Assembly (NCBI RefSeq): GCF_014200725.1
Contig: NZ_JACHCL010000002.1
Location: 62,001 to 126,000 of the forward strand
Reading direction: 5' to 3'
Source: Janthinobacterium silvisoli
GTDB lineage: Bacteria; Pseudomonadota; Gammaproteobacteria; Burkholderiales; Burkholderiaceae_D
Length of the DNA stretch: 64,000 bases
Shown here: one piece after another, positions 28,365 through 35,303 of the stretch
Layout of the letters: each line of letters opens with the position of its first letter
How positions within the stretch are numbered: the stretch's first letter is position 1
Position numbers and translations under genes: made by a program
Notes under the pieces: model-generated
Seen by the model: only the letters and a program-made list of their open reading frames with translations
What the model was told of the DNA's origin: nothing
The model's database searches: none

Positions 28365-28391
28365 GGGGTCAGACCCGACGGGTCTGACCCC
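28365..28391. repeat. 27-bp palindrome, copy 1
   Basis: Arms GGGGTCAGACCC and GGGTCTGACCCC flank GAC, giving a near-perfect 27-bp palindrome. It sits between the permease gene and the convergent GNAT gene. An identical copy is at 35277-35303 and a divergent relative at 7489. It probably works as a two-way terminator; no T-run follows on the + strand. Confidence 0.8.
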
Positions 28392-28825: not shown

Positions 28826-28953
28826 GATTATCAGAGGTAAAAGACAGGCGGCTATTGTCGCATGGCTGGGCTGGGATCACTCCTGTCTTTCAAAAACCTT
28901 GGCTTTTGAAAAATAATGCTGCGTTTAAGCAGTCTTGGCCTAGAAAGCTGCCA

Positions 28954-31900
28954 TCACTTGGCTCTGCTTGTTTTAGTCGCGATCAGCACCTCCAGAGCAT
29001 GCGCCTGCGCAACACCGATCTGCACCAAACGAGCAAGCACATCATCGATTTGTGGTCTTAAAGGGTAGGAGGCCGATTGGGGCACAGTATCGATTTGCAG
29101 AACACCTTCCAGCCACGCGACCATCCGTGAACCAAGCCCGTTATCTACCCAAAGCTGTTTGTTAGCAGGTTGGCGTTGAAGCCAAACTAGCGCACTTGAT
29201 AGGAAGAACTCCAGATGTGTGGACCGTGGAGATACTTCAAGAAGGTTCATTGTTAAAAGCGCGGAAAACGTAACTGGTCCCATCCCAATCAACCGCCCCA
29301 GTTCAGGGAAGAACGGGGCAATCTTACCTATCCCGCGCTCAAACAAATAGCACGACGCATCGCTGAATGGACTATAGTTATTAAAGAAAAAGACAGCAAT
29401 CGCTGCACCGACCCGGGTCTCGATATTCATTTCCGATCTATCTTGCTCCCTCCTCCACCCAGCAGTATCAATCAAGCGATCAGCAAGGAGCACGCGTAGC
29501 TTGAGTGCAATACCGACGTCCAGACCAAGATCACTAAAGTAGGCCTGATCGATCGCGGGTACCAGTCTAGTAACAATATCGAAGAAGGAATCTTCGGGAA
29601 CGGCGGACACGCGCAAAATATGGGTAACAGTCTCATCGGGTGACATTCGTGTAAAAGAGCGCCCCATGATCGAGAAGAAGATACTGTTCCACTCGCCAGG
29701 TCGATTGTCGATATTAGTATCCGGCGCTAGCCCGACCCCGTTCGCCTCAGCCGTCCAGTCGGCATAAGCGTTGACAAAGCTAACACTCCAGGCTGGGTCT
29801 ACAATCTCCGAACTGAGCGTCAGTTGTCGAAGCCATAGCGCAGCGTTCTGGGAATGAAGCTGCCCGCTCGGTTCAGCAACGCGAACCGGTTGTATCGTAG
29901 GGGCATTTTCGCTGCTCCCGAGACTTTGCCGGACTGAAGGTCTCCTAGAAGGCAGTGGTGGCCAAATCGGTTCCGAAGCTGTGTTGTTAAGCCATGCCAC
30001 CTCGGCTTGGATTGCAGCAGCTACGTGCTGGCGATGTCGCACCTGATTCGCCTTTTTTGTATCACCAAAGTCATCATCCTCATGCATGGGCTGGACTTGA
30101 GCCACCAACGCACATCGAAGCAAAGCTGGCACAAAACGTGGATCGATTTCGTAAATGACCGCGAGAGCTGCACCGAAGCCATGCGCTGCGTGCGGATCGT
30201 CACGCCCCGCGAGCTCAAGTAATAAGTTCCGATCTTCTTGGCGACCATGTCGACGCCAAAGGTGAATGAGGCCAAGCGCGGCAATTGCAACGGGATTGAA
30301 ACGCATACCGTGACGTGTCCGGGAAACTGAAATCCCATCTGCCCGGGAAAACATCCGCGCAAACACATCTCGAGCCCACTCTTCGTGCTTGCTCAGCATT
30401 ACATCGGAACCGTCGCGGGTTAAGATCATAGCCGTAGAAGCGATGGCGCTCGCTCGCGAAAGGGGAATATCTTCCGGCATATCAGACATGGTCTCGAGAC
30501 GTTGTGCATACGCCAAGGCCTGCTCCACGAGTTCGGAACTTGACTTCGATCCATCCTCTACAGCATTTTGGATTGCCGCGTCAATTCCAGAATCCCTTGC
30601 TCGCGCCGAGTTTTTCTTTTGAAGCGTCTCGATGTGCCTCACCTCCTCCGTTGGAGAAACATAAGCAAGGGAACCATTGATAGCTTGCCAATTCATAGGG
30701 TTAATCACATTAAGAGCGTGGTGCGCCATGAACCTGGGAGTTGCGAAGGTATCATTAGGTTTTACTGGCCCCAAACGTTCCGAGGCAGCGATAAGCAAAC
30801 CATGGAGAAGGCTGCGATCAACCGATTCGTTAATAGCGAAATTCGAAAGCAGCGCTTCAAGTGCCCAACGGCGGGAGGGGCGACTTTTTAGGTCGGCAAG
30901 CATAATCGAAGCAGTTGGCTCCTTCGGGCCGATTGCCCCCCACTCTCCGAAATCAATTTCCGGAGTGACCTCGAGAAACTGACGAGTTCTATCAGCCGTG
31001 AGCAGTTCAGGCGAACCGAGAAACGGTATGGCAATCGCCATTGATTTAGGCCAGTGCGAAATCAAAATATCAACTGCCACCATTAGAAATGCTGCGGGTG
31101 AACCTTCAGGACCAAGAACATCAGAAATGATCTGAGCAGGCTCTTCGTTTTTTTCGATACGCGTGTGAGTCCATGCCTCTAATGCAAGCAGCGCTGACTC
31201 GACCGCATAGCCATCGCCAGCTTGGCGCGACCATAGATAGGACTGCTCACAAGGAAAGTAGCGTGGACCAGTTGGAAACACGAGCGTAAAACCATCGGTA
31301 CCTGGCTCCCCTATATCGGGCAACGCAATGATCGCGTGATCAAGCAAGCGACGGATAAGACTTAGGCCATGTTCCGGCGCGACATTAAGTAGTTCAAGGA
31401 ATGGCCCCTGCGCGGGAGATGACGGAAGAAAGTCGTTATCAAGATGGGTGAATGCCTCGGGCTGGGGTGTTCGTGTGTGCTCTTGTTTTGGGATCAGCCC
31501 GGCTAAGGTAATCTCCACGAGCTCTACGGGCGCTGCAACCGCCAACGTACCGCGAAACTTCAGGATCTCACGGATGATGTAATCTGAATTTCGCCGCCCA
31601 AGCACACTCCGGAGATAGCATTGAGCACGCTCTGGTACGCGTGCTGCCATAAGAAGAAATGCCTGACGAACATCGGTTTCGAGTTTCTGCAGATCGTAAG
31701 AACGAAACGCCTTCGCAAATCGCGGCTTATCACTTGCAAGCAGATGGTGATTTTTTGCATCTTCGATTTCCTCAAGCCAGTCAGCAAGAACGATTGCCAT
31801 TTTCGGCGTCATCGGCCCCATCCAAAATATGGCTGTTGAAAGGCTTCGGAACAACTCGACAACGTCAGGAAGCACGCAAAGCGGTAGATGTGATCGCCTT

Positions 31901-34071
31901 ATAAGTAACCAATCCGTTAGCTTCGTCCATGAGCCATTGATCGGTCCATATAAAGTGGCAGGAATCTTCTCTGCATCCTCCACATACTCGGCAAGCATTT
32001 CCACGAGAGGGCGTGACTCGACAGCGAGCGCCGTACGAATCAATTCGCGTAGAAGCACACCGTCATTCTCCATCAGATATGCAGATGCACGATCCAGTAG
32101 CGTAAGAGCAAGCTCGGAGCGCAGAATTGCAAGTAATGCCCAGCGCCGCCACGATGCATGAGCTCCATCGCGACTGACCCGGTTTAAGTACTCTCTCCAC
32201 GGCTCTCCATCCTCAGACCGTTCCAATGCAAAGCGGGCCCCAAGTTCAATGCCCCGGGCCAAGGATACCGGCACCGCACGATCAAGCGGAAGCTGATCGA
32301 TGCGGTCAGGGGAATCGTGCAAACGCGACGCCACACCCCACTCACGCAAGACATCATGATGAAATGATAATTGATCGAGACTTAATTCACGTAGCGTTCT
32401 ACTAGAAACAAGTGCATCCACAACCAAGGCCTCGGCCGTAGCTTCCAAATAGTCGCGGCCCGCCAGAATGGCATCGGAAAGGTTTGCAAGAAGCCGCTTG
32501 CGTTCGCGCCGATTTACTTGGGGACCATCAGCTGTGGTCCACCATCGTTCGAGTAGATCTATCTCCGAACGAAGCTGATCGGTGCGTCCATCCACTTCAA
32601 GCAAACGGGATAATCGGAAAAGGTTTCGGGCAACGGCATTGGCAGGATGCATGTCGCTGAGCAAGGCCGAGAGAGTTGGGGCTGCAGCTTTGAGCTCCTC
32701 TATCTCCTCCGCTCCAAGGTCATCAATGATAACCGGGCGAGCATGCCCCAGCTTTGCCAGGATGTCTGACGGCAACCAGTTTGGCTCATCTTTATCGAAG
32801 TCTGTCCTGACTGTAACGATAACTTGGAATGCCGGAATGATCGCTGCTGCCCTCACCAGATCGGTGACTGTAGCGCGCTTGCCAGGATCGTCAAAGAAAT
32901 CAAGGCTATCGACGAATAGTGTGGCACCGCCGTCGCAAGCAAGATCAGAGAGAAAGGACGCTATCCCACCATCAATCTGAAATTCGGCCTTGAAAGCTGG
33001 CCATCCCCCGGGGGTTGTCCGCTCTGGCGTAAGAACAATTACACGACCTTCGGTGGAAACTTGTTCTACAAGCGTCCCCAAAAGACCCGACTTACCGACG
33101 CCAGGAGCACCACGAATTTCGATATAACGGCCTTGATCGCGCGCTTCCCGTACCGCATTAAGCTGGGTAGAGCGGGCCAATACTATTCCAGCGATACTCC
33201 GACGAAGATCAGCAGCCGCAAGGCCAGCAGCTTCGGCCAAAGTCTCTCGTGATGCTCGGTTTCGCGGCGAGCCCCGTAGTCGGAAACCGTCAATGCCTGA
33301 AACTTCACTCAGAAGCTTGCTTCTTTCAAAATCGCCCCCCGAAGCCGCAGCCCGAATAGAAGTCTCGGTTAGAATCTTCCAGAAGACCCCGGCTCGCGCC
33401 GAATCAATTGGATCGAGAAAATTTCGGGCTCGCTCAAGCGCCAATTCAATTGAATGTGATCCGGGAGCATCAAAGTCGAAAGTCAGTATCTGAAAGCGAC
33501 GCAAAACCTGCCAGACTGTTTCGTCGTCACCCATACAACCAGCACTCAGAAGATGACTACGCACCGTTTCTACAAAGGAGCGCATATCGTCATTGCCAAC
33601 TTTCTTACGCTTAATTCGTCCGTGAAAAACCGATTCAGAGCCAACCTCTCGCGCCCAACGCAGTACATCTTGATATGGACCCGTTATCTTGAAGGATGTT
33701 CGTTCAGTCGCGACGGCAAACTGGTGGCGCTGGTGTGTAAAGTCGAGCTTCTGCAGTGCTTGGGCAAGCTGCTCTACGACGCTTTTAAATACCGCATCAT
33801 TGGGAGAAAATGTGATTGTGCGCTTTACCTGAACCTCAAGAACTGCAGGCTCACCCATATGCGTCACGCCGCGAACGATCACATCATCGAGAGGATGTCC
33901 CTCGCCTGCACGCTGTAATTCAACGCTGCCAATCAACACACCCGGTAGGCCGCGCGGATCAGCCTCCGCAAGCATCGTTAGCAGATAATGCGCGGCTACC
34001 TGTCCTTCAAAAAAAGCTCCCGCAGGGCCACTGGCCGAAGGGCTTGTTGCGGTTTGTTCGTTAATCGTCAT
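28954..34071 (-). CDS. Avs-like STAND NTPase with PD-(D/E)xK nuclease domain, candidate antiphage defence protein
   Basis: A 1705-residue protein. Residues 18-160 form a nuclease-like domain: E22 in FFEGQ, D62-D63 in HPLDDVIV and Q81-V-K83 in LEVQVKRT, the E/DD/QxK pattern of the Cap4/DUF4297-type PD-(D/E)xK fold. A P-loop NTPase follows: Walker A GAPGVGKS (321-328), Walker B ATLFVDSLD (384-391 region) and an Arg-bearing strand VIVTVRTDF (417-425). The remaining ~1200 residues are mostly helical without a recognised domain. Nuclease-NTPase-long helical sensor is the layout of AVAST (Avs) proteins, which bind a phage protein, oligomerise and cut DNA. GC looks lower than in flanking genes. The frame extends to a TTG at 34143; the ATG at 34071 is preferred. 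Function is inferred from architecture alone. Confidence 0.75.
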   Translation of the reverse strand: MTINEQTATSPSASGPAGAFFEGQVAAHYLLTMLAEADPRGLPGVLIGSVELQRAGEGHPLDDVIVRGVTHMGEPAVLEVQVKRTITFSPNDAVFKSVVEQLAQALQKLDFTHQRHQFAVATERTSFKITGPYQDVLRWAREVGSESVFHGRIKRKKVGNDDMRSFVETVRSHLLSAGCMGDDETVWQVLRRFQILTFDFDAPGSHSIELALERARNFLDPIDSARAGVFWKILTETSIRAAASGGDFERSKLLSEVSGIDGFRLRGSPRNRASRETLAEAAGLAAADLRRSIAGIVLARSTQLNAVREARDQGRYIEIRGAPGVGKSGLLGTLVEQVSTEGRVIVLTPERTTPGGWPAFKAEFQIDGGIASFLSDLACDGGATLFVDSLDFFDDPGKRATVTDLVRAAAIIPAFQVIVTVRTDFDKDEPNWLPSDILAKLGHARPVIIDDLGAEEIEELKAAAPTLSALLSDMHPANAVARNLFRLSRLLEVDGRTDQLRSEIDLLERWWTTADGPQVNRRERKRLLANLSDAILAGRDYLEATAEALVVDALVSSRTLRELSLDQLSFHHDVLREWGVASRLHDSPDRIDQLPLDRAVPVSLARGIELGARFALERSEDGEPWREYLNRVSRDGAHASWRRWALLAILRSELALTLLDRASAYLMENDGVLLRELIRTALAVESRPLVEMLAEYVEDAEKIPATLYGPINGSWTKLTDWLLIRRSHLPLCVLPDVVELFRSLSTAIFWMGPMTPKMAIVLADWLEEIEDAKNHHLLASDKPRFAKAFRSYDLQKLETDVRQAFLLMAARVPERAQCYLRSVLGRRNSDYIIREILKFRGTLAVAAPVELVEITLAGLIPKQEHTRTPQPEAFTHLDNDFLPSSPAQGPFLELLNVAPEHGLSLIRRLLDHAIIALPDIGEPGTDGFTLVFPTGPRYFPCEQSYLWSRQAGDGYAVESALLALEAWTHTRIEKNEEPAQIISDVLGPEGSPAAFLMVAVDILISHWPKSMAIAIPFLGSPELLTADRTRQFLEVTPEIDFGEWGAIGPKEPTASIMLADLKSRPSRRWALEALLSNFAINESVDRSLLHGLLIAASERLGPVKPNDTFATPRFMAHHALNVINPMNWQAINGSLAYVSPTEEVRHIETLQKKNSARARDSGIDAAIQNAVEDGSKSSSELVEQALAYAQRLETMSDMPEDIPLSRASAIASTAMILTRDGSDVMLSKHEEWARDVFARMFSRADGISVSRTRHGMRFNPVAIAALGLIHLWRRHGRQEDRNLLLELAGRDDPHAAHGFGAALAVIYEIDPRFVPALLRCALVAQVQPMHEDDDFGDTKKANQVRHRQHVAAAIQAEVAWLNNTASEPIWPPLPSRRPSVRQSLGSSENAPTIQPVRVAEPSGQLHSQNAALWLRQLTLSSEIVDPAWSVSFVNAYADWTAEANGVGLAPDTNIDNRPGEWNSIFFSIMGRSFTRMSPDETVTHILRVSAVPEDSFFDIVTRLVPAIDQAYFSDLGLDVGIALKLRVLLADRLIDTAGWRREQDRSEMNIETRVGAAIAVFFFNNYSPFSDASCYLFERGIGKIAPFFPELGRLIGMGPVTFSALLTMNLLEVSPRSTHLEFFLSSALVWLQRQPANKQLWVDNGLGSRMVAWLEGVLQIDTVPQSASYPLRPQIDDVLARLVQIGVAQAHALEVLIATKTSRAK

Positions 34072-34234
34072 CGTCTGATTCTGGCGGACCGTAGCACAGG
34101 AATTAATTTCTTCACAATTATGCCCGAGAATTAATGAACTCAAGGAAACATTACCCTCTTGAATACCTCATGCCGACGCCTGTCAATATCAAAGATGTCT
34201 CCAAGTAGAATTTTTGGACGATACGATTTAATAA

Positions 34235-35230
34235 TTACCCCAGCTTCACCACCTGCTTGCCAAAATTCTGCCCTTTCAGCAAACCGATAAACGCCTGCGG
34301 CGCACTAGCCAGCCCTTGCGCCACGGATTCGCGGAAGATCAGCTTGTCCGCCGCCACCAGATCTGCCAGTTCCACCAGCCCTTGCGGCCACCATTCCATA
34401 TGTTCGGAGACGATAAAGCCGCGTACGGTCAGGCGGTTGGTGAGGATCAGGCGGAAGTTGTTGATTGGTGTCGCTTCGCCGTTGTAGCCGGCGATCCAGC
34501 CGCAGATGGCGATCCGGCCGAAAGCGTTCGTGCGGGCCAGTACGGCGTCGAAGATGGCGCCGCCCACGTTTTCAAAGACGGCGTCGATGCCGTCGGGCGT
34601 GGCCGCTGCCAGGTTGGCTTCCAGGCTGCCGGCCTTGTAGTCGATGCAGGCGTCGAAACCCAGGGTGTCGACCACGTAGGCGCATTTCTCGGCGCCGCCG
34701 GCGATGCCGACCACCTTGCAGCCTTTCAATTTCGCCAGTTGCCCCACCACGCTGCCGACCGCCCCGCTGGCAGCCGAGACCACTACCGTTTCGCCCGCCT
34801 TTGGAGCCATGATCTGGTTCAAGCCATACCAGGCCGTCATGCCGGGCATGCCCACCGCACCCAGGTAGGCCGAGGCGGGAATGCGCGTGGTGTCGACCTT
34901 GCGCAAGATGCTGCCGTCCGAGACAGCGATTTCGGTCCAGCCCAGGCGGCCTTCGACCATATCGCCGACGGCAAACCGGGGATTCTTGGATGCAATCACC
35001 TCGCCCACCGTACCGCCGACCATGGTCTCATTCAAGGCTTGCGCCGCCGCATAACTCTTGCCCTCATTCATGCGCCCGCGCATATACGGGTCCAGCGACA
35101 GATAATGATTGCGGATCAGGACCTGGCCATCGGTGATTGACGGGATTTCCAGCGTTTCCAGACGAAAATGTTCGGGTTGCACTTCGCCCGTCGGGCGGGA
35201 AGCGAGGACGATGCGTTGGAAGGTGGGCAT
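34235..35230 (-). CDS. NADP-dependent oxidoreductase, CurA-like MDR family
   Basis: A 331-residue medium-chain reductase without the catalytic zinc ligands. Marks are YLSLDPYMRGRMNEGKSY near the N-terminus, PGMTAWYGL and the nucleotide fold VVVSAASGAVGSVVGQLAKLKG, followed by NVGGAIFDAVL. The group includes leukotriene B4 12-hydroxydehydrogenases and the curcumin/alkenal reductase CurA, which reduce the double bond of enones with NADPH. A ribosome site AGGAG precedes the ATG. The stop lies 163 bp upstream of the STAND-like gene. Confidence 0.9.
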   Translation of the reverse strand: MPTFQRIVLASRPTGEVQPEHFRLETLEIPSITDGQVLIRNHYLSLDPYMRGRMNEGKSYAAAQALNETMVGGTVGEVIASKNPRFAVGDMVEGRLGWTEIAVSDGSILRKVDTTRIPASAYLGAVGMPGMTAWYGLNQIMAPKAGETVVVSAASGAVGSVVGQLAKLKGCKVVGIAGGAEKCAYVVDTLGFDACIDYKAGSLEANLAAATPDGIDAVFENVGGAIFDAVLARTNAFGRIAICGWIAGYNGEATPINNFRLILTNRLTVRGFIVSEHMEWWPQGLVELADLVAADKLIFRESVAQGLASAPQAFIGLLKGQNFGKQVVKLG

Positions 35231-35276: not shown

Positions 35277-35303
35277 GGGGTCAGACCCGACGGGTCTGAC
35301 CCC
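35277..35303. repeat. 27-bp palindrome, copy 2
   Basis: Identical in all 27 bases to the copy at 28365-28391. It lies between the 3' end of the Dabb gene (5 bp away) and the 5' end of the reductase, both on the minus strand, so it can terminate the Dabb transcript. The two copies enclose the GNAT, STAND-like and reductase genes. Confidence 0.8.

Follow-up and report, generated by a model that had tools for sequence, protein, structure and literature searches.

Avs proteins, according to the papers cited in this paragraph, assemble into tetramers on detecting phage proteins, which activates their N-terminal nuclease (PMC12198126), with phage as well as host genomes being cut by the nucleases of Avs1-4 (PMC12931631). 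The terminase is recognised by Avs1-3 and the portal by Avs4 (PMC12724215); in EcAvs4 it is the TPR domain that binds the portal, and the binding mode suggests that portal monomers are recognised (PMC12847820). A metallo-beta-lactamase nuclease together with a protease has been described as well (PMC12799240), which is different from the Cap4-type effector considered here. The present analysis deals with a gene for a protein of 1705 residues in a stretch of 64,000 nucleotides from Janthinobacterium silvisoli (contig NZ_JACHCL010000002.1, positions 62,001 to 126,000), called the window in the following. We consider it probable that this protein is a single-protein anti-phage Avs receptor, from a branch that is sister to Avs4 and has a Cap4-type nuclease in place of the Avs4 N-terminal domain. 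That Avs effectors vary is reportedly a point made by Gao et al. in 2022.

An intact gene with an Avs4-type sensor

The gene and its predicted parts are given below, with conservation counted in set A1 (18 members) and, for the nuclease, also in set A3 (19 nuclease domains).

28954..34071, minus strand: whole gene, open frame of 1705 residues, ATG at 34071, stop at 28954-28956
33274..34038, minus strand: predicted PD-(D/E)XK nuclease domain of the Cap4/LmuA/HamA fold, residues 12-266
34006..34008, minus strand: E22, acidic residue predicted for the first helix (16/18 in A1, 19/19 in A3)
33883..33888, minus strand: D62-D63, predicted metal ligands (18/18 in A1, 19/19 in A3)
33823..33831, minus strand: Q81-x-K83, predicted catalytic QxK (Q81 and K83 in 18/18 of A1, 19/19 of A3)
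32302..33234, minus strand: STAND NTPase with winged helix, residues 280-590
33088..33111, minus strand: Walker A GAPGVGKS, residues 321-328 (G321, G324, G326 and K327 in 18/18 of A1)
32899..32910, minus strand: Walker B, residues D388-D391 (D388 and D391 in 18/18 of A1)
32353..32358, minus strand: H572-D573 of the winged-helix HDxLREW motif (18/18 in A1)
28957..32181, minus strand: mostly helical Avs4-type sensor, residues 631-1705

The 1705-residue frame is a real, intact Avs-type gene. The preliminary description of this DNA had its interval right, and all motifs named there (E22, D62-D63, Q81/K83, GAPGVGKS at 321-328 and ATLFVDSLD) were found; the gene lies on the minus strand, and a reading of 28954..34071 on the plus strand was rejected due to its many stops. 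An in-frame TTG at 34143 represents an alternative upstream start (+24 residues). The host genome (5.9 Mb, 16 contigs) contains the gene once, and a scan for promoters and terminators gave signals no commoner than in shuffled sequence. Comparison with a 70%-identical gene of Gallionella yielded a nonsynonymous rate (dN) of 0.20 and a synonymous rate (dS) of 1.44, the latter being close to saturation, and thus a dN/dS of about 0.14. Relatives that are full-length or nearly so (n=17) share 70-19% identity with the protein. D62, D63, Q81, K83, G321, G324, G326, K327, D388, D391, R422, H572 and D573 are invariant in all 18 members of A1, a conservation of motifs that, in the aligned sequences, exceeds chance. 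A1 leaves aside the partial relatives and fragments L022, L035, L036, L037 and L039, the weak genome matches behind L023, L024, L041 and L042, the repeat records H5, H17 and H19-H21, the plasmid matches H11, H12, H14 and H15 and the viral-contig relatives found later, whereas L018, L029 and L040 of A1 are not part of A3.

By its sensor the protein belongs with Avs4, by its effector it does not. A profile search of the PDB matched residues 281-773 to the structure of EcAvs4 bound to the PhiV-1 portal (8DGF), and with residues 281-640 alone hhalign gave E=4.7e-16 against Avs4. The STAND NTPase, winged helix and helical sensor of both proteins are homologous and collinear in these comparisons, the HDxLREW motif aligning with THDIYEEW of EcAvs4, and the predicted sensor model tracks the Avs4 fold almost end to end; identity in the profile alignment is only 14%, and with 17.2 bits against NCBIfam NF041815 (Avs4) the window protein stays below the equivalog cut-off of 1500 bits. 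Searches with the sequence by itself (phmmer against the PDB; Pfam) yielded nothing firm, whereas profiles gave matches. The Avs-like single-gene architecture seen in the preliminary description is supported, but the sensor, which was said there to recall no named Avs group, is instead of Avs4 type by profile and model comparison. The N-terminal nuclease of Avs4, called Mrr-like, is unrelated by profile to residues 1-290 of the window protein (hhalign probability 0.3%), and a hidden Markov model (HMM) of this Avs4 domain gave no match to the window protein.

The Cap4-type nuclease and the branch next to Avs4

The N-terminal part of the protein contains a PD-(D/E)XK core with E, DD and QxK, as in the Cap4-type nuclease fold, and the fold proposed beforehand is borne out by structure comparison, in which Cap4 structures align. 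With regard to the SAVED domain, by which the CBASS effector Cap4 senses cyclic oligonucleotides, the alignment to 7yia (Cap4) spans residues 13-266 only, while some other Cap4 rows reach 368-378; what lies beyond the nuclease in the window protein resembles Avs4. Since a nuclease profile gave three weak, chance-like matches against the PDB, the identity of the nuclease rests on the predicted model. Two points lower slightly our confidence in the interpretation as an Avs4 sister with exchanged effector. E22 is not strictly kept, being A in L040 and lying in a stretch absent from the L029 frame as called, and the second point is how the N-terminal half ranked by VIA-align.

In a tree on NTPase and sensor, 21 family members were split from Avs4 proteins by a fully supported branch (100/100), whose length is 1.96 + 0.33 changes per column on the two sides of the midpoint root. 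An Avs4 model run over 229 class genomes gave weak matches in 18 and none above the cut-off; therefore, plasmid records served as the source of reference Avs4 proteins. A Hymenobacter plasmid protein (L039 8950-13989) carries the nuclease of the family (HMM E=6.5e-38) together with an Avs4 sensor (E=6.5e-59), both values being computed for a set of 32 proteins; it is placed on the Avs4 side of the tree and matches Avs4 in PADLOC at E=1.2e-114. Mapping the Cap4-type label on the tree takes two changes, with one change sufficing in 15% of bootstrap trees. L039 suggests that effector and sensor have recombined, although it is a long row and the pairing may have arisen only once. The idea of a new subtype is partly retained, in that the family forms a long separate branch with a different effector; the new trigger that had been coupled to it bears on a further possibility, which we consider less likely than not, namely that the same machine has shifted its sensor to another phage protein (terminase, capsid or a replication protein) and represents an Avs subtype that has a separate trigger. 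The long branch would fit this, as would the C-terminal third of the sensor, which shows little conservation and scarcely any match when sequence is used without structure, and the fact that the sensed protein differs among Avs families (PMC12931631, PMC12724215). The course of the sensor model along nearly the whole Avs4 fold argues against such a shift.

Among other known systems, Avs3 (PDB 8DGC, terminase-bound) has the order of nuclease, STAND NTPase and sensor in common with the 1705-residue protein and ranks third by Foldseek for its N-terminal half. Avs3 carries a Cap4-type nuclease. However, 8DGC was absent from the PDB sequence matches at E<=1 and from the best 50 rows for the sensor model. 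In contrast to Cap4 (CBASS; 7yia, 6vm6), LmuA (Lamassu; 9hr5) and HamA (Hachiman; 8zue), the nuclease is followed here by a STAND NTPase with a sensor of Avs4 type behind it. Models of the PADLOC candidate PDC-M54A were matched by 10 of the 18 A1 members (PDLC04700) and by 8 of them (PDLC04702), the best match of the window protein being partial (residues 7-391 of a 1621-position model). PDC-M names denote several genes, yet no partner gene was seen here, the insert containing no second large frame. A literature search found the name PDC-M54 in no paper, and among the matches listed no title or abstract start describes this Avs4-like branch, in a search whose coverage takes in few subscription papers and no bioRxiv preprints.

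The same nuclease module is located at the N-terminus of a 561-residue protein (L036 8953-10638) and heads proteins of 2274 (L037 8878-15702) and 1503 residues (L022 6865-11376), each without a detectable STAND part; trypsin-like protease genes are found near the Agrobacterium protein of this STAND-less kind. Furthermore, 9 of the 19 A3 nuclease domains matched the PADLOC model PDLC02918 (DUF626_VIII; best E=1.1e-21), which may stand for an effector from a different defence system.

Distribution, neighbours and insertion site

The gene is patchy in its occurrence and, judging from the genomes compared, a single-gene insert of mobile character. Matches were found in 8 of 294 family genomes, five of them stronger than E=1e-30, and in 4 of 369 class genomes, own genome included in both cases, as well as in 23 of 72,556 plasmid records (8 at at least 80% coverage). 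Phage records gave no match (0 of 50,697). Two loci on genome contigs, from Gallionella and Magnetococcales, share 70 and 65% identity, respectively. Five loci on viral contigs came from an alignment search, L069 and L070 being the same match; searching the viral contigs with the single protein or with a second nuclease alignment gave none. As identity to genes of distant bacteria is high and presence is patchy, horizontal transfer fits these data.

The segment harbouring the gene is

28867..34240, no strand: inserted segment flanked by the GNAT and curcumin-reductase-like genes, about 5.4 kb, borders approximate

and contains the 1705-residue gene as its sole large frame, overlapping frames aside. 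Its G+C content is 0.523, that of the remaining window 0.593, although four other 2-kb bins have 0.538-0.556. The flanking reductase stretch was matched in 39 of 40 same-genus genomes, own included, and 30 loci from these 39 genomes, again with the own one, entered the count of empty sites. GNAT and reductase genes are 57-77 bp apart in 25 of the 29 other loci, while the remaining four (L080, L084, L088, L100) are filled by other open reading frames (ORFs); L113, a further genome with both genes close together, stands outside this count. A chromosomal housekeeping role, which might have been favoured by the flanking genes, those tested being metabolic or transport genes, is exceedingly improbable given this empty site and the few genomes with matches. 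The preliminary description would have been refuted by homologues that are all housekeeping genes with conserved neighbours, but this does not hold: the gene sits alone in an insert, its occurrence is patchy, and plasmids as well as virus-like contigs carry relatives.

The GNAT/reductase site seems to receive varied cargo: an ORF pair of 277 and 398 residues in L110 (12887-15009), L111 and L112, and ORFs of 238, 90 and 129 residues in L109 (77-1767). Four ORFs from same-site inserts in sister genomes had no PADLOC match at E<=0.001. Within either border region, no repeats of at least 12 bases were found by a search run inside each border and not between the borders. A short palindrome on GGGGTCAGACCC, possibly a REP-like element, has one copy on each side of the insert (28365-28391 and 35277-35303; 0 expected by chance), with similar copies in some related genomes.

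Several relatives have defence genes nearby. The one on Sinorhizobium meliloti pSymA has caspase family, pYEATS, type I restriction and abortive-infection genes at most 9 kb away, the one on viral contig L068 a CapP-like gene immediately upstream, and a Sphingomonas relative adjoins an AbiEii-type gene. On Cupriavidus necator pHG1 (L035 8935-10254), a broken copy, a C-terminal fragment only (residues 1297-1698), directly follows an IS883 (IS66-type) transposase gene about 8 kb from Avs1 genes. Other relatives, that of R. leguminosarum pR132501 among them, are surrounded by metabolic or transport genes. In a PADLOC scan at E<=1e-10, the 134 ORFs neighbouring the relatives at 19 loci matched 272 models, compared to 6 for 64 control ORFs. 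Because the models are redundant and do not correspond to single genes (one CapP-like protein alone accounts for 16 at E<=0.001), the sets unequal in size, the listing limited to 25 of the 272 models and the control narrow (one chromosomal region plus four ORFs of other inserts), this enrichment is only suggestive. Plasmids, which carry many of the relatives, commonly bear defence genes anyway.

The location of many relatives on large plasmids and of some on virus-like contigs would also suit a STAND conflict protein with a non-phage target, for example in plasmid exclusion or mobile-element competition, and to our knowledge no phage assay exists for this Avs4-like branch, which we count on the same side. 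Nevertheless, with a sensor homologous to an anti-phage receptor and defence genes near some relatives, we regard such a role as improbable.

Proposed mechanism and implications

For the anti-phage Avs receptor, we infer the following course of events by analogy to the described Avs proteins. The Avs4-homologous helical sensor (approximately residues 631-1705) would bind a phage protein of conserved type, the portal being the likeliest, whereupon the STAND NTPase (280-590) would bind ATP and the protein assemble. The Cap4-type nuclease domains at the N-termini (12-266) would meet in the assembly and may then cut DNA without specificity, which would stop the infection and probably kill the cell as well. 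The portal protein is the trigger to be expected by default; taken alone, the chances of it being the trigger appear about evenly balanced.

A broader proposal, which we consider unlikely, would be that the family is a separate Avs class, that is an Avs4 sister with Cap4-type nuclease on proteobacterial plasmids and virus-like elements, with a non-portal trigger and a nuclease module that moves between Avs branches and into STAND-less proteins. As the sensor tracks Avs4 over almost its whole length despite an identity of about 14%, the question is raised whether portal recognition survives such divergence. With its sensor kept and its effector exchanged, the gene offers a test of how Avs receptors evolve.
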